NCBI GenBank assembly: GCA_012840725.1
Contig: DURQ01000052.1
Span: 1-49,125, forward strand
Length of the DNA stretch: 49,125 bases
Reading direction: 5' to 3'
From: Bacillota bacterium
GTDB taxonomy: Bacteria > Bacillota > Limnochordia > Darwinibacteriales > Darwinibacteriaceae
Within the stretch, counting starts at the first letter, position 1. Each line of letters opens with the position of its first letter. The notes beneath the pieces are model-generated. The model saw only the letters and a list, made by a program, of their open reading frames with translations, did not search any database and had not been told where the DNA came from. Shown here one piece after another: positions 3,069 through 9,895 of the stretch. A program made the translations under genes and the position numbers.

Positions 3069-3869
3069 CTACCGCCGCCAATCCCAAGCGGGAGTTGGAG
3101 GCGAACTCAAATGAGAATTGTCCTGATAGGCCAGCTGCCGGCTGAAGACCAGGATGGTCGGGCCTTCGATCTCCTGGTCAGAATAGCGCCCGCGGGCATC
3201 CTCCGGAACCTTGTAGACGCTGAAGGAGAAGGTGGTAACCTCCCGCTGCGGCCGTGGTGCCTGCATGGTCAGGATCATATAGGGGTCGATCCACTCCACC
3301 CGCTGGCGAGCCGGTGAGAAGTAGAACCCGCCTTCCACAGATTTGACCGTGATCTCGCCCACATCGCTCTGACCGAGGCCTCGGTAGACATCATCGACCA
3401 CAAGAGTTACGGTCTCCCGTTCAGGAGCCAGAAAGGCCAGATCGACAAACACCTGCAGCTCCTCCTGAGAACGCACCACATAGGAAGAGGGGCTGAAGAT
3501 CTCTTGAGTCTGAACTTCCACCACCGCCTCCCGGTCCCAGGCGCTGACCTTTACTGCCACAGGTTCGCCACGCCACGTTGAGTTCAGGTTGAAGGCCTCG
3601 ATGACCACGGTGCGGGCCGGCACCACGAGAGTACGATCCAGGAAAAACGGGCGCCAGCGCTGGTCCCACCCTTCCGAAGTTAACGTCACGGTGAGGCGGG
3701 ATGTGCCTCCATTGGCCAACGCCACTTTCACGGTCGAGTCTTCCAGCCATGCCACAACTGCCATGTCTCCCAACCAGCCGTCCCGCATGGCCGCAGCGGC
3801 CGGACTGGCGAGAAGAACCACAATGAACACTGCTGCTGTCAAAGCTTGAACCGAACTCAAACGACGCAA
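3069..3869 (-). CDS. Exported protein of unknown family, paralogue of the next gene upstream
   Basis: A 266-residue protein with a signal peptide (residues 1 to about 27, ending SPAAAA). I do not recognise the family. The remainder looks all-beta. It matches the 256-residue product of the adjacent gene block by block: VVAWLEDSTVKVALAN / IAWLEGGTLSVALAN, the STWRGE / TYWRGE block, EIFSPSSYVV / DIFQPDSYIV, TLVVDDVY / RLVVDDYY, DPYMILTMQAP / KPYMVLRMKTP and EIEGPTILVF / RIEGPTILVY. The start is TTG at 3869, eight bases after a perfect AGGAGG; the ATG directly abutting that SD is out of frame. It is the last gene of a three-gene operon with the caspase-fold lipoprotein and ends just before a terminator. 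A role at the cell surface or in the wall is inferred only from export and context. Confidence 0.8.
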   Translation of the reverse strand: MRRLSSVQALTAAVFIVVLLASPAAAAMRDGWLGDMAVVAWLEDSTVKVALANGGTSRLTVTLTSEGWDQRWRPFFLDRTLVVPARTVVIEAFNLNSTWRGEPVAVKVSAWDREAVVEVQTQEIFSPSSYVVRSQEELQVFVDLAFLAPERETVTLVVDDVYRGLGQSDVGEITVKSVEGGFYFSPARQRVEWIDPYMILTMQAPRPQREVTTFSFSVYKVPEDARGRYSDQEIEGPTILVFSRQLAYQDNSHLSSPPTPAWDWRR

Positions 3870-3892: not shown

Positions 3893-4663
3893 CTACCGCG
3901 CCACTCTCCCGCTGTTGTCATCGTACGGTGATGTTCCGAGGAAGCGCATGTTGCGGCCGTAAACCAGGATGGTTGGGCCCTCGATCCTCTCCTGCCACCA
4001 GTTGGATGGGCCTTCTGACTTGCGCATGCCGAAGGTCAAGGTGGTCAGGCCGGCGATGTTGGGAGTCTTCATCCTCAGCACCATATACGGCTTCACATAC
4101 TCGATTGTGTTGGTACCCCGCACCTGTGTAAGGCCGCCGCCAATGGATTCGATGCGGATGCGATCGTCCTGCGCGCCGCCCTGTGTGGTGTAGTAGTCAT
4201 CAACAACCAAGCGGGTTTGACCGGAGCTGTCCAGGAGATTGTCCAGGTTCACCCGCACGTTCAGCTGGGTGTTGGCTGCGACGATGTAGCTGTCCGGCTG
4301 GAAGATGTCCCCGTTCTGAACCGGAACCTTGAACCCGCGGAACCCTCCCGAAACCCGCACATCGAGCTCACCGCGCCAGTAAGTTCCCGGGTAGAAGGTC
4401 TCCAGCACGATGGTGCGCCCCGGAATGCTCACCTGGCGAGAGGCAAACACCGGCCTGCCCCAGGAATCGACTGTATTGGTCGAAACGGTTACCGTGGTCC
4501 TGGTGTTGCTGGAGTTGGCAAGCGCAACACTCAAGGTACCGCCCTCGAGCCAGGCTATCGCAGTAACGTCAGTAACAGTTCCGTAGCTCTCCCACTGGGC
4601 GGCCGCCGGAACAGACCCGATAAGCAGCAGCGCTGCCAGCAAAGCGATAGTCAACCTTTTCAT
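3893..4663 (-). CDS. Exported protein of unknown family, tandem paralogue
   Basis: A 256-residue protein with a clear signal peptide (MKRLTIALLAALLLIGSVPAAAQ, cleavage after AAA). Beyond it lies a predicted beta-rich region with many alternating Thr, Val and aromatic residues and no cysteine. It is paralogous to the 266-residue product downstream along its whole length, including the terminal IEGPTILVYGR block, so a tandem duplication followed by divergence is the simplest account. The ATG follows GAGGAGGGATACT, a strong ribosome binding site. It sits 24 bases after the caspase-fold lipoprotein gene and 23 bases before its paralogue. No enzyme motif was seen; a structural, ligand-binding or partner role for the lipoprotein is possible but unproven. 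Confidence 0.82.
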   Translation of the reverse strand: MKRLTIALLAALLLIGSVPAAAQWESYGTVTDVTAIAWLEGGTLSVALANSSNTRTTVTVSTNTVDSWGRPVFASRQVSIPGRTIVLETFYPGTYWRGELDVRVSGGFRGFKVPVQNGDIFQPDSYIVAANTQLNVRVNLDNLLDSSGQTRLVVDDYYTTQGGAQDDRIRIESIGGGLTQVRGTNTIEYVKPYMVLRMKTPNIAGLTTLTFGMRKSEGPSNWWQERIEGPTILVYGRNMRFLGTSPYDDNSGRVAR

Positions 4664-4687: not shown

Positions 4688-5806
4688 TTAGTATCTGAAG
4701 ATCGGCGTATCGCCATAGTACCCTTCGTAGATATACGGTTCGTGATAATCCGATGCCCGGTTGCGATCATAATACCAGTACATCTCTTCTTTGGTGTACT
4801 CGTAAAGCTCATATGCTGTAATGTTCCCGTCCCGGTTCAGATCGGCGTTTCTCGTCTGCAAGCCCATAAGCAAGAAGTGGGTGAAAACGCTGTGCCCCAG
4901 TTTATTATCGTAGTTCACCCGCTGATTCTTCCTGGCGCCGGCCAGCACCGTGTACCGCCAGTCCTTCCTGAATGCGAAGGGCTGGAACGGTTTGCCGTCG
5001 GCCATGGTCTCCGAAAATGAGCCATCCACGATCAGAGTCACACTGTCGCCGGGGAAGAATTTGACCCAAGACTCCAGTTCAGCATCGGTGATAGCTGTGC
5101 TCCACGTCTGTCCATTGTCATCATAGGGGCTCAGATAGTCGGAGCCCGAAAGGCCTGAGAAGTAGATTACCAGGTAATCATGGGGGCTGCGAGCCATGCT
5201 GATCAGGTTGTCGATTTCTCTTTTGATGTTGGCCTTCGTAGCTTGACTGTTTTTCAGAAGCTTGCCATAGCCAGCTAACATGTTGCCCCCGTGCAGCGTG
5301 TTGTAAATTGCCTCAGCATCCTGCGCCGGCCCCGGATAGTACCGGTCACCGCTGTAGCTGCTGATACCGATCACGAGGTAATAGGCCATGCCCTCGAAAT
5401 TCCTCACGACCCACGACATCTGATTGGCGTAGACATAGGTTGACGTGGCAGCATTGCGCAGAGACAACACCCTCACCGTGTAGGGACCAGAGGCCAAACC
5501 GGTGATCCGGAAATACCCATTGTTACCGGTCCTTCCGCTCTTGGTCTGCCCCGAGTAGTCGTTCCTGGCTTGAACCACCGCATTCCTAAGTGCAACATAC
5601 CCATAGGGAGGGACTTCGCTCGCCGAAAACAGCACATCACCCTGGTCCTCAGAGTTCTCTGCTGCTGCCGGTGAAACGCTGGCCCGAACGTAAATGTAGC
5701 CTTCTATCCCAGTGGTCAAACCAGGCCCAGGCCCAGGGGTAATCTCACACCCCGTCAGTGCAAAGGCTAGCAACAACACGGCTAGACAATACGCGATTCG
5801 CCTCAT
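4688..5806 (-). CDS. Lipoprotein with CarboxypepD_reg-like and caspase-fold (pseudoenzyme) domains plus EF-hand
   Basis: A 372-residue lipoprotein: MRRIAYCLAVLLLAFALTGC places the lipobox LTGC at C20. A reading frame extends 46 codons further upstream, but the ATG at 5806 has GAGGAGG at good spacing and starts the signal peptide, so it is chosen. Residues about 34-120 resemble a carboxypeptidase-regulatory-like beta-sandwich (GIEGYIYV...GYFRITGLASGPYTVRV). Residues about 140-318 follow the C14 caspase fold: YYLVIGISSY, QDAEAIYNTL, DYLVIYFSG, VTLIVDGSFS and GHSVFTHFLL. The catalytic SGHG is SGLS (Leu219 for His) and the D-x-Cys is DGS (Ser263 for Cys), so it is probably not a protease. Residues 322-333 (DLNRDGNITAYE) form a canonical EF-hand loop. 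It leads an operon with two exported paralogues. Confidence 0.85.
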   Translation of the reverse strand: MRRIAYCLAVLLLAFALTGCEITPGPGPGLTTGIEGYIYVRASVSPAAAENSEDQGDVLFSASEVPPYGYVALRNAVVQARNDYSGQTKSGRTGNNGYFRITGLASGPYTVRVLSLRNAATSTYVYANQMSWVVRNFEGMAYYLVIGISSYSGDRYYPGPAQDAEAIYNTLHGGNMLAGYGKLLKNSQATKANIKREIDNLISMARSPHDYLVIYFSGLSGSDYLSPYDDNGQTWSTAITDAELESWVKFFPGDSVTLIVDGSFSETMADGKPFQPFAFRKDWRYTVLAGARKNQRVNYDNKLGHSVFTHFLLMGLQTRNADLNRDGNITAYELYEYTKEEMYWYYDRNRASDYHEPYIYEGYYGDTPIFRY

Positions 5807-5935: not shown

Positions 5936-6014
5936 TTGACACATATATCGCCCGGTGATATATTTATGTCGTCAGACGTTATAACTGTCCGCGATATATC
6001 AGTCAAGGATATAG
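5936..6014 (+). promoter_or_regulatory. padR promoter with inverted-repeat operator
   Basis: TTGACA (5936-5941), a 17-base spacer and TATATT (5959-5964) form a near-consensus sigma-A promoter. The inverted repeat ATATATC (5943-5949) / GATATAT (5957-5963) lies in the spacer and runs into the -10. A second site, GATATATC (5993-6000) with GGATATAG (6007-6014), lies between the start of transcription and the ribosome binding site. Both fit autorepression by the PadR product; this is inference from position and symmetry. Confidence 0.72.
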
Positions 6015-6030: not shown

Positions 6031-6357
6031 ATGGTCCCAGAGGAACAGGGTGCCCTCACAGAAGCCGTCTTCTACATCCTTCTCAGCCTACACGAGCCGC
6101 TCCACGGTTACGGCATCATGCAGAAGGTTCAGGAACTGACGAACGGCAGAGTGGTCTTGGGCCCGGGGACTCTCTACGGAGCCATAAACACACTGGTGGA
6201 GAAAGGGTGGATCAGGCCGCTTGTTGACGGGTCAGATTCCCGCCGCAAGGAATACCTGATCACTGAACGTGGCGAAACAGTGTTCTTGCAGGAGCTGGCC
6301 CGGCTGGAAGAGTTGGTGCGGCACGGAAAATCAGTGACAAGGAGCGAAGAGCAGTGA
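6031..6357 (+). CDS. PadR family transcriptional regulator
   Basis: A 108-residue winged-helix regulator of the short PadR class. Residues 9-85 hold the fold: ALTEAVFYILLSLHEPLHGYGIMQ begins with the family LSL/HGYGI signature, followed by GRVVLGPGTLYGAINTLVEKGWI (recognition helix around GTLYGAI) and RRKEYLITERG (wing). PadR repressors often respond to envelope stress, phenolics or antimicrobials and control neighbouring membrane genes. The ATG follows AAGGAGGTGGTACC. Its TGA overlaps the GTG of the DUF2812 gene (GTGA), so the two are translationally coupled. The upstream promoter carries two inverted repeats that could be its own operators. Confidence 0.93.
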   Translation: MVPEEQGALTEAVFYILLSLHEPLHGYGIMQKVQELTNGRVVLGPGTLYGAINTLVEKGWIRPLVDGSDSRRKEYLITERGETVFLQELARLEELVRHGKSVTRSEEQ

Positions 6358-6866
6358 CGAAGAGCGTCGTTAAGTTCATCTCCAACTTCGAAAAGGAAGA
6401 ACAGTGGCTGAACCAGATGGCGGCAAAGGGCTGGCACTGCATAGACTACGTCTTCGGGCGTTACCTCTTCGAGAAGGGCGAACCCGGCGAGTACATCTAC
6501 CGCATCCAGCTGCTGAAAAACCCCATCAACCACTTGGAAAGCACCGCGTATCTGAACTTCCTGAGAGAGACTGGCGTGGAAGTAGTCGCCTCCTACTCTC
6601 GCTGGGTGTACCTGCGCAAAAAGGCGGCAGATGGGCCGTTCGACCTTTTTTCCGACAAAGAGTCCCGGATCGCACATTACAAGAACATCATCTACATGTT
6701 TCTCCCCTTCGCCATCATGAACTTGGCCTTCAGCCTGAAGATCTTCACCGGTCAAACGGTTCCAGGCCTGATCCACGTAGCTGCTGTGGTGATTCTATCC
6801 ATCCCTATCGCCCGCTGCTACAAGAGGATCCGGCGGCTGAAGAAGGAGAGACTGATCAGTGAGTAG
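6354..6866 (+). CDS. DUF2812 domain membrane protein
   Basis: A 170-residue protein starting at GTG within the padR stop. Residues 1 to about 105 match the DUF2812 pattern: a short VVKFISNFEKEEQWLNQMAAKGW opening, where the EEQWLNQMAAKGW block is diagnostic, then a beta-rich part with YRIQLL and GVEVVASYSRWVYLRK. Two hydrophobic helices follow (about residues 112-133 and 139-158), then a basic tail. The family is often paired with a PadR regulator in Bacillota and its function is unknown; an accessory or anti-stress membrane role is a guess. The product would sit in the cytoplasmic membrane with the DUF2812 domain probably inside the cell. Confidence 0.88.
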   Translation: MTKSVVKFISNFEKEEQWLNQMAAKGWHCIDYVFGRYLFEKGEPGEYIYRIQLLKNPINHLESTAYLNFLRETGVEVVASYSRWVYLRKKAADGPFDLFSDKESRIAHYKNIIYMFLPFAIMNLAFSLKIFTGQTVPGLIHVAAVVILSIPIARCYKRIRRLKKERLISE

Positions 6867-6931: not shown

Positions 6932-7975
6932 TCAATGCGCCTTAACTTCCGTCCAGATGCGATCATAGATGCTCAGAGTCTGCCCGAGGTTGACAAACAC
7001 TTCGGCATTGACCAAGTCCTCCGGTTCCGGATAGACGCTGTGGTCCTGACTGATCTCCGGAGGAAGCATGGAACGGGCAGCTCCGTTGGTCACGGCGTAG
7101 CCCGTGTAATCGGCGTTGCGGAAGGCGATTTCGGGGTCGAGCATGAAGTTGATGAACTTCATGGCTCCTTCGGGGTTCTTGGCGTTGCTCGGTACTGCCA
7201 TGACATCAAACCAGAGGTTTGTGCCTTCCTTCGGGATGGCGAAAGCCAGATCCGGGTTCTGGCTGCGGGCTACCGTGGCCTCTCCAGACCAGACTACGGC
7301 CAGGGCTGCTTCGCCAGCGATCATCTTGTCCTGCGCCTCATCCACCACGTAGGCCAGGACCAAGGGTTTCTGCTGCTTGAGCAGTTCCCCCGCCTCGGCG
7401 AGTTCCTGTTCATCGAGGGTGTTGATGCTGTAGCCCAGCTTGAGAAGGGCCACAGCGATGGAGTCCCGCTGACTGTCCAGCATCAGGATCTCCTTTTCAT
7501 ACTTCGGGTCCCAGAGGATATCCCAGCTGTCCACGGGATCCTCCACCATAGTTGTGTTGTACAAGATGCCAACAGTACCCCAATAGTACGGGAGCGAGTA
7601 CTCGTTCGCCGGATCGTAGTCCCAGCCCAAGTGCCTCTTTTCCACGTACTTCACATTGGGGATCTTGGTCAGATCCAGCTTCTGCACCAAGCCTTCTTCG
7701 ATCATCCTAGTGAGCATGTAGTCCGATGGGAAGATGACGTCGTAAGCGCTGCCGCCAGCCTTGATCTTGACGTACATGTCCTCGTTGGTGGCGTAGGTGT
7801 CGTAGACTACCTTGATCTTCGTCTGCTTTTCGAACTCTGCCAAGACACTTTCGTCGATGTAGTCACCCCAGTTGTACACGTAGATCGTAGGCTTGTCCCG
7901 CGTGCAGCCGCTGTGCGCTGCACCGAGCAGAACTAGAGCCGCCAGCACCGCCAGCGTTTTCGAGAGTCTGCTCAC
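6932..7975 (-). CDS. potD: Spermidine/putrescine-binding lipoprotein, second copy
   Basis: The chosen GTG at 7975 gives 347 residues: it follows AAAGGAG at eight to nine bases and directly opens the signal peptide; an open frame runs 20 codons further upstream. Signal peptide to SGC, with His at the -3 position, a weak lipobox. The mature part opens with the PotD signature YVYNWGDYID. NLWFDVMAVP holds the Trp and Asp that grip polyamines in E. coli PotD, and DSQRDS and WSGEA are also conserved. It is highly similar along its length to the adjacent copy (shared ending YDRIWTEVKA), so it is a tandem duplicate. It is the last gene of the pot operon, 33 bases after the first potD and just before a terminator. 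The two copies may differ in polyamine preference. Confidence 0.92.
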   Translation of the reverse strand: MSRLSKTLAVLAALVLLGAAHSGCTRDKPTIYVYNWGDYIDESVLAEFEKQTKIKVVYDTYATNEDMYVKIKAGGSAYDVIFPSDYMLTRMIEEGLVQKLDLTKIPNVKYVEKRHLGWDYDPANEYSLPYYWGTVGILYNTTMVEDPVDSWDILWDPKYEKEILMLDSQRDSIAVALLKLGYSINTLDEQELAEAGELLKQQKPLVLAYVVDEAQDKMIAGEAALAVVWSGEATVARSQNPDLAFAIPKEGTNLWFDVMAVPSNAKNPEGAMKFINFMLDPEIAFRNADYTGYAVTNGAARSMLPPEISQDHSVYPEPEDLVNAEVFVNLGQTLSIYDRIWTEVKAH

Positions 7976-8067
7976 ACTCCTCACTCCTTTCTTATGATTG
8001 GGGTTTTGGAGGGCCCGCAGAGCCCATATACGCAAGAGCCCCTCCTTGGGGGAGAAGCTCTGCTTGC

Positions 8068-9117
8068 CTAGAACGCTTTAACTTCGGTCCAGATGCGGTC
8101 GTATTCTTTTAGGGTCTCACCCAAACTGACAAACACTTCGGCATTGGCCAGGACATCCTCGCTTGGATAGGCCGCGGGATCGTTGCGCACCTCTTCGGGC
8201 AGCATGGCCCAGGCGGCCAGATTGGGGGTGGAGTAGCCGGTGTACTCGGTATTGCGCAGGGCAATCTCCGGCCTGTTCAGGAAATCAATGAACTTGTGGG
8301 CGGCGTCAACATTCTTGGCACCCTTGGGGATGGCCACGACATCGAACCAGAGGTTCGTCCCCTCTTTGGGGATGGCGTAGGCCAGATCGGGGTTCTCACC
8401 GATGGCGTACATTGCTTCTCCCGACCAGGTCAAGGCCAGCACTGCTTCACCTGCTACCATCTTGTCTTTGCCTTCGTCCACCACGTAAGCCAGCACCAGC
8501 GGCTTCTGCTTTTTGAGGAGCTCGCCGGCCTCGGCCAGCTGCTTGGGATCCTTTGTGTTAACGGAGTAACCAAGCTTCAGGAGCGCCGCACCGATGGAGT
8601 CGCGCTGGCTGTCGAGCATGAGGATCTCCTTGGCGTACTTGGGATCCCAGAGCACATCCCAGCTGTCGATTTCCTCATCCACCATGGTGGTGTTGTAGAG
8701 GATGCCCAGGGTACCCCACATGTAGGGCAGGGTGTACTCATTTCCCGGATCGTAATCGGCACCCATCAGCTTCGGGTCGATGTTCTTGTAATTCGGGATC
8801 TTGTTCAGATCGATCTTCTGCAGCATTCCCTCGTTGATCATCCTGGTGACCATGTACTCCGAGGGGAAGATCAGGTCGTAGTTGCTGCCGCCAGACTTGA
8901 TCTTTACATACATATCCTCATTGGTGGAATAGGTGTCATAGACCACCTTGATTCCCGTCTCTTTTTCAAACTCTGGAAGAATAGTCTCGTCGATGTAGTC
9001 TCCCCAGTTGTACACATGCAGTGTGGGCTGATCTTTTCCGCACCCTGCAAGACTCAGGCTAAGCACTACCAAACTTAGGATCGTAAGGACTGTCTTTCTT
9101 AGGCGCACGCTTCCCAT
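8068..9117 (-). CDS. potD: Spermidine/putrescine-binding lipoprotein, first copy
   Basis: A polyamine-binding protein of about 349 residues. The longest open frame begins at 9162; ATG at 9117, or GTG at 9108 which lies nine bases after AGGA, are better starts because they open the signal peptide. Both overlap the 3' end of potC by 50-59 bases. The lipobox is LAGC, a good signal peptidase II site. Mature sequence: LHVYNWGDYIDETILPEFE, where NWGDYID is the family hallmark; TLPYMWGTLGILYN; DSQRDSIGAALLKLGYS; WSGEAM; NLWFDVVAIP with the ligand Trp and Asp. It captures spermidine or putrescine outside the membrane and delivers it to PotBC. A second potD copy follows at once. Confidence 0.93.
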   Translation of the reverse strand: MGSVRLRKTVLTILSLVVLSLSLAGCGKDQPTLHVYNWGDYIDETILPEFEKETGIKVVYDTYSTNEDMYVKIKSGGSNYDLIFPSEYMVTRMINEGMLQKIDLNKIPNYKNIDPKLMGADYDPGNEYTLPYMWGTLGILYNTTMVDEEIDSWDVLWDPKYAKEILMLDSQRDSIGAALLKLGYSVNTKDPKQLAEAGELLKKQKPLVLAYVVDEGKDKMVAGEAVLALTWSGEAMYAIGENPDLAYAIPKEGTNLWFDVVAIPKGAKNVDAAHKFIDFLNRPEIALRNTEYTGYSTPNLAAWAMLPEEVRNDPAAYPSEDVLANAEVFVSLGETLKEYDRIWTEVKAF

Positions 9118-9895
9118 TCCTTTCTTTTCTTTCTTCGCGGGCCTGCCGCACATTGACCACAATCAGTAGTGCCAGAACAAACGTGAACATTATGGTAGAC
9201 AGTGCGTTGATCTTGGGGTTAATTCCCCTTCTGGCCATGGAGTAGACCGTGATGGACAGCGTGGATACTCCTGAACCAGTGGTGAAAAAGCTGATGACGA
9301 AGTCATCAATGGACAGGGTAAAAGCCAGAAGCAGTCCTGTAACGATGCCCGGCATGATCTCGGGGATGATCACCTTCCACAAAGCCTGCAGCGGCGTGCA
9401 GCCCAGGTCCAGGGCCGCTTCGTAAAGGTGCTTGTTCAACTGCCGCAGTTTAGGCAGTACAGAAAGGATCACATACGGAACGTTGAAGCTGATGTGCGAA
9501 AGCAGCAGGGTCAGGTAACCGAACCGCACCCTGGTGAAAACGAACAGCAGCATCAGGGAAATGGCGGTCACAATCTCCGGGTTCAGAACCGGCAGGTAAG
9601 TCACGTTCATGATCACCTTTTTGGCCGGACCCTTTGAATTGTGGATGCCGATGGCCGCCATGGTGCCAATGATGGTGGCCAGTACAGCCGAGCTGGCGCC
9701 TATGATCAGCGTTGCATACAGCGAATGCATGATGGTGCGATCCTGGAACAGCTCTACGTACCAGCGCAGCGTAAAGCCTCCCCACATGCCCCGGGAACGC
9801 GCATCATTGAAGGAATACACCATCAAGACGGCGATGGGCATGTACAGAAAGGCGAAGATGAGGTAGATGTAGCTGCGTTTGAGATGCCTTACCAT
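9059..9895 (-). CDS. potC: Polyamine ABC transporter permease PotC
   Basis: A 278-residue inner-membrane permease with six predicted helices. The ABC-2 coupling EAA loop reads YEAALDLGCTPLQALWKVIIPEIMPGI (key residues EAA at about 160 and the closing G-x8-P pattern), which docks onto PotA. The extreme N-terminus KRSYIYLIFAFLYMPIAVLMVYSFN is the usual PotC start. It overlaps potB by seven bases and the following potD by about fifty, as expected of a tightly packed operon. The C-terminal tail after the last helix is rich in Arg, Lys and Glu. With PotB it forms the channel for spermidine/putrescine import. Confidence 0.95.
   Translation of the reverse strand: MVRHLKRSYIYLIFAFLYMPIAVLMVYSFNDARSRGMWGGFTLRWYVELFQDRTIMHSLYATLIIGASSAVLATIIGTMAAIGIHNSKGPAKKVIMNVTYLPVLNPEIVTAISLMLLFVFTRVRFGYLTLLLSHISFNVPYVILSVLPKLRQLNKHLYEAALDLGCTPLQALWKVIIPEIMPGIVTGLLLAFTLSIDDFVISFFTTGSGVSTLSITVYSMARRGINPKINALSTIMFTFVLALLIVVNVRQAREERKERNGKRAPKKDSPYDPKFGSA

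Follow-up and report, generated by a model that had tools for sequence, protein, structure and literature searches.

A caspase-fold lipoprotein without a catalytic dyad and its conserved downstream partner in an order of Bacillota

A caspase-like lipoprotein gene

The window, by which we mean the whole 49,125-nucleotide stretch of DNA analysed here, carries on its reverse strand a gene (positions 4,688–5,806; 372 amino acids plus stop) whose translation, Pfam matches, structure model and Foldseek matches point to a C14 (pseudo-orthocaspase) lipoprotein lacking the catalytic dyad. All features below lie on the reverse strand unless stated otherwise. The N terminus reads as a bacterial lipoprotein signal peptide with the lipobox LTGC and its cysteine at residue 20 (5,747–5,806), and G19–C20 is invariant in an alignment of 14 homologues. 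The open reading frame opens at 5,944, but we rejected a start upstream of 5,806, as the Met there begins the lipoprotein signal. A carboxypeptidase-regulatory-like beta domain follows (residues 73–116, 5,459–5,590; PF13620, E = 3.2e-8, above the cut-off), and then the C14 caspase-fold domain (residues 138–346, 4,769–5,395), which matches Peptidase_C14 over residues 144–346 (PF00656, E = 1e-7, 32.3 bits against a curated cut-off of 21.4) and so shows family C14 homology. These two domains alone exceeded Pfam cut-offs; the model NF047832 (Caspase, EACC1-associated type) scored 35.9 bits against a curated cut-off of 140. The substituted dyad described below is accompanied by a p20 region and no p10, the latter judged from length and Pfam only, an arrangement that defines pseudo-orthocaspases. 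At the C terminus (residues 371–372), Arg-Tyr or a close variant terminates most homologues, whether or not the dyad is present. Most genomes of the order also have a short lipoprotein-like reading frame without a caspase domain (G000:C38:15559-15900 and matching places), which matches only the N-terminal part of the lipoprotein, that is, its signal and beta domain.

An AlphaFold2 model based on an alignment of 25 homologues had a mean pLDDT of 86. Against the PDB, Foldseek ranked MALT1, yeast Yca1, GSU0716, metacaspases (TbMCA2) and caspases best, the highest TM-score on target being 0.73 for the MALT1 caspase domain. These matches bear out the original prediction, made from the DNA letters, that a caspase fold is retained, and the assignment of the modelled structure to this fold stands.

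Loss of the catalytic dyad

Re-reading the translation showed that the reading frame, strand, residue numbering and the two substitutions, Leu219 and Ser263, had been given exactly in that prediction. The histidine motif SGHG has become SGLS (5,147–5,158; SGLSG at residues 217–221), with Leu219 in the His column, and the cysteine motif D-x-C has become DGS (5,018–5,026; IVDGSFS at residues 259–265), with Asp261 kept and Ser263 in the Cys column. In the family profile alignment, SGLS and DGS coincide with the catalytic motifs of metacaspases from plants and trypanosomes, confirming that both catalytic residues are replaced, so that the His–Cys dyad of an active orthocaspase or cysteine peptidase is missing. 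A frameshift or misread motif was rejected as an explanation because both motifs sit inside well-aligned, conserved stretches. The only cysteines in the protein are at positions 7, in the signal peptide, and 20, in the lipobox; a search for another active-site cysteine therefore ends with the lipidated C20, and no displaced catalytic cysteine is possible elsewhere in the mature chain. TbMCA2, Yca1 and MALT1 share the caspase fold and have alignable SGHG and D-x-C motifs, but unlike the window protein they are active or activatable enzymes.

Homologues were drawn from 151 related genomes, 37 genomes of the order, 73 of the class and 398 of the phylum, most of them metagenome assemblies that are 75–100% complete, which makes calls of absence weak. 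Because a six-frame search with PF00656 overlooks most dyad-less members, including the gene in the window itself, we used profile A3 to find homologues. A single-sequence scan of genome contigs detected no relative, whereas an alignment-based scan of the same contigs succeeded; its contigs overlap the genome set, and only one set was counted. Viral contigs, when scanned, yielded no relative of the lipoprotein. Among rows long enough to score, the catalytic cysteine was absent in 21 of 21 order-level homologues and the histidine also in 19 of 21, thus extending the predicted loss to the lineage, and both residues were present in all 25 homologues from outside the order. The alignment with metacaspases and the absence of the cysteine from every order-level homologue indicate that the loss in the window protein is not a chance event. 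Histidine is retained in two scored rows (L010 and L015) and in the partial row L030, a pattern that fits loss of the cysteine first and the histidine later. In a maximum-likelihood tree built without the dyad columns, the dyad-less rows lay on one side of a single branch; one loss in the order lineage is the simplest reading of this sequence-based tree but is not proven, as the branch support is modest (72/63).

Some elements of the active site persist. The putative S1 pocket of TbMCA2 is lined by the acids Asp95 and Asp211 (PMC4357240), which correspond to Asp163 (5,318–5,320, from the family-profile alignment) and Asp261 by a numbering offset derived from the profile alignment; these are kept in 16/21 and 19/21 dyad-less homologues, respectively. 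The same Asp pair is kept in other pseudo-orthocaspases (PMC6426788), and the window protein shares it with them. Retention of Asp261 could reflect the fold rather than ligand binding.

The mostly kept S1 acids, together with the frequency of serine in the Cys column (10/21, more than any other residue), would suit a protein that is still an enzyme, with Ser263 or a shifted residue as a new nucleophile in place of the dyad. We consider this very unlikely. The Cys column holds six residue types across the order lineage (S, A, N, T, G and D) and the His column nine, leaving no common new pair, and 19 of 21 C14 cores contain no cysteine at all. Meanwhile, Gly147, Asp210, Gly218, Asp241, Leu244 and Phe308 are invariant in the lineage. 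That the catalytic columns drift freely within a kept fold argues against replacement chemistry. The S1 acids would equally suit a protein that regulates, or acts as a decoy for, an active caspase-like protease of its own cell, a classical role of pseudo-caspases, as c-FLIP has for caspase-8. However, searches of the host genome (84% complete), one of them with a profile that included active forms, yielded no C14 gene besides that of the lipoprotein, and no active paralogue was found in any order genome searched, although the Pfam search for C14 paralogues is not very sensitive and overlooked the window's own gene. A decoy role is, in our judgement, improbable.

A conserved downstream partner

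Immediately downstream, 24 nucleotides past the caspase stop codon, lies a gene (3,893–4,663) for a secreted protein with a Sec-type signal peptide. This partner had no family match in Pfam or NCBIfam, and its structure model (pLDDT 86) is all-beta. Foldseek matches to Ig-like and transglutaminase-domain proteins were generic (TM-score about 0.2–0.3, r.m.s.d. 10–26 Å); we did not take them as homology, and they assign the partner no binding function. In the closest relatives a paralogue of the partner comes next in the cluster, as a comparison of homologue loci indicates (3,069–3,869 in the window); this tandem copy is more distant or absent in other genomes.

In 21/21 order loci with downstream sequence present, the caspase gene is followed immediately by a partner homologue, and the gap of 9–37 nucleotides (21 order loci measured) suggests a single transcript for both genes. 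Every one of the 23 order genomes with a caspase gene also encodes the partner; eight further order genomes have a partner homologue and no detected caspase gene, several of these copies being at contig ends. Importantly for the history of the pair, the same partner stands directly downstream in 5/5 loci of a sister family, f10, whose caspase dyad is intact, and the flanks examined around the phylum's other C14 genes contained no partner homologue. The f10 C14 lipoproteins (L023, L026, L027 and L029), which come from the same class, have the same architecture and downstream partner as the window protein and differ from it in their intact SGHG and D-x-C motifs. Because the partner is shared between the order and f10, the two genes were already paired before catalysis was lost and have stayed so since, which makes the partner the leading candidate ligand of the pseudo-caspase. 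Among the papers searched, none described a caspase-like lipoprotein paired with a gene of this kind.

Constraint and divergence

Within its neighbourhood the caspase gene changes fastest, with about 45% identity to same-genus relatives compared with 80–92% for MATE, RapZ and PotA, and it was undetected in some genomes of the genus. Both observations would be expected of a gene decaying after its function was lost, in which the missing dyad reflects nothing but relaxed constraint. Several findings make decay highly improbable. The two most similar caspase genes (61% identity) differ by 0.29, 0.24 and 0.59 at codon positions 1, 2 and 3, respectively, and other caspase-gene pairs likewise show an excess at third positions, indicating that the gene is maintained by purifying selection. 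Furthermore, reading frames were intact at the order-level loci not cut by contig ends, the core of the fold is strictly kept around the lost dyad, and adjacency to the partner has been retained.

Divergence within the caspase family did not track that of RapZ (rho = 0.20, p = 0.18). In 9 of the 23 order genomes with the caspase gene (G002, G008, G012, G022, G027, G031, G032, G035 and G036), this gene was cut by a contig end or lay within 200 bp of one, compared with 1/30 for RapZ and 2/22 for MATE (together 3/52; p = 0.0008), in a test devised only after the pattern had been noticed. One possible explanation for this excess is strain-level hypervariability that breaks assemblies. Strain variation of this kind, and divergence independent of RapZ, would also be seen if the lipoprotein were a receptor or recognition protein at the cell surface that diversifies fast, the caspase fold serving only as a stable framework and the partner belonging to the displayed complex. 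We regard this as unlikely: the contig-end test followed the observation, the third-position excess signals constraint rather than positive selection, and the protein varies most in its N-terminal stretches and its loops, a pattern that ordinary proteins also show.

Calcium loop and membrane location

An EF-hand-type loop, DLNRDGNITAYE, occupies residues 322–333 (4,808–4,843) and was read from the sequence and from sub-threshold Pfam dockerin and EF-hand matches. The loop that had been predicted is thus present here, but it is kept whole in only 7/21 dyad-less homologues, and PF13202 scored 11.1 bits against a cut-off of 25.9, below the level of an EF-hand protein. The complete pattern also occurs in 2/4 f10 members and 9/21 other homologues. 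Its presence in some dyad-less and some dyad-bearing forms suggests an ancestral feature that is not strictly kept, and the calcium-dependent role suggested in the original prediction is therefore not supported; for the window protein itself, the sequence makes a weak case for such a role. The calcium site of metacaspases differs from this EF-hand loop.

The genome of the window organism encodes an Omp85 protein. Contigs of relatives carry the names Limnochordia or unclassified Bacillota, and an outer membrane is present in cultured Limnochordia (PMC11456536). We take the organism to be probably diderm and, given Omp85, the lipoprotein could sit in either the inner or the outer membrane, as far as sequence can indicate.

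Proposed role

We find it fairly likely that the lipoprotein is an envelope pseudo-orthocaspase with a C14 fold that does not cut, and that it probably serves in binding or as a scaffold, its groove holding a peptide or protein for which the downstream partner is the prime candidate. An enzyme has thus probably become a binding protein. Binding is the best inference because the fold is kept, the dyad is gone, no alternative cysteine exists and the gene is maintained by selection; of the binding or sensing role first proposed, the preference for binding over proteolysis survives and the calcium dependence does not. In the mechanism we propose, an envelope lipoprotein that has lost its dyad would not cut proteins, and its caspase groove, with acidic S1 residues retained, would hold a peptide or protein partner, possibly by binding basic segments. 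The first candidate for this ligand would be the all-beta secreted protein encoded immediately downstream, which would presumably contact the lipoprotein, and the ancestral pair may have been a protease and its target or regulator. A broader and more tentative possibility, which we hold to be somewhat doubtful, is that a two-gene envelope module that once included an active protease became, in this diderm order, a fast-diversifying complex for recognition or scaffolding that has no catalytic activity. If so, the intact-dyad version in f10 would provide a natural before-and-after pair.

By every sequence feature tested, the lipoprotein belongs to the pseudo-orthocaspases, a class that is itself established; the novelty lies in its spread through a whole order of Bacillota, its architecture as a lipoprotein and its conserved partner. 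One survey classed 8.6% of bacterial homologues as pseudo-orthocaspases, of which 90% came from Alphaproteobacteria or Cyanobacteria (PMC6426788); the host here belongs to Bacillota, whose old name, Firmicutes, is absent from the main text of that survey. An earlier survey found an intact dyad in 84% of bacterial homologues and few homologues in Firmicutes (PMC3501461). Similar to the cyanobacterial and alphaproteobacterial proteins, the window protein has p20 without p10, a replaced dyad and the S1 Asp pair, and in some genomes such a protein is the sole copy. By contrast, its lineage has drifting dyad columns where theirs are mostly Tyr-Ser, and it is a lipoprotein with a carboxypeptidase-regulatory-like domain and a linked partner gene. 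TbMC4, a pseudo-metacaspase, and c-FLIP (both discussed in PMC6426788) are likewise caspase-fold pseudoproteases with non-catalytic roles, but they are eukaryotic, and pairing with a secreted beta protein is not known for either.

Bacterial pseudo-orthocaspases have so far been discussed mostly for phototrophs, and a photosynthetic role has been proposed for them (PMC6426788); SyOC of Synechocystis, studied by deletion, affects survival of oxidative stress (PMC7889975). An order-wide, single-copy lineage in Bacillota that are not known to be phototrophic shows that the link to photosynthesis cannot be general. Since the sister family f10, with its intact caspase, has the same partner gene, the function of a pseudo-caspase becomes directly testable with two small proteins.

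Other genes near the caspase gene also recur in relatives. On the forward strand, 6,031–6,866 encodes a divergent PadR-like regulator and, after it, a second gene that overlaps it; both are also retained upstream of the caspase genes at L031, L033, L037 and L038. Two tandem PotD-like substrate-binding lipoproteins (6,932–8,035 and 8,068–9,162, reverse strand) lie beside one transporter set, and the duplication is present also at L033 and L037.
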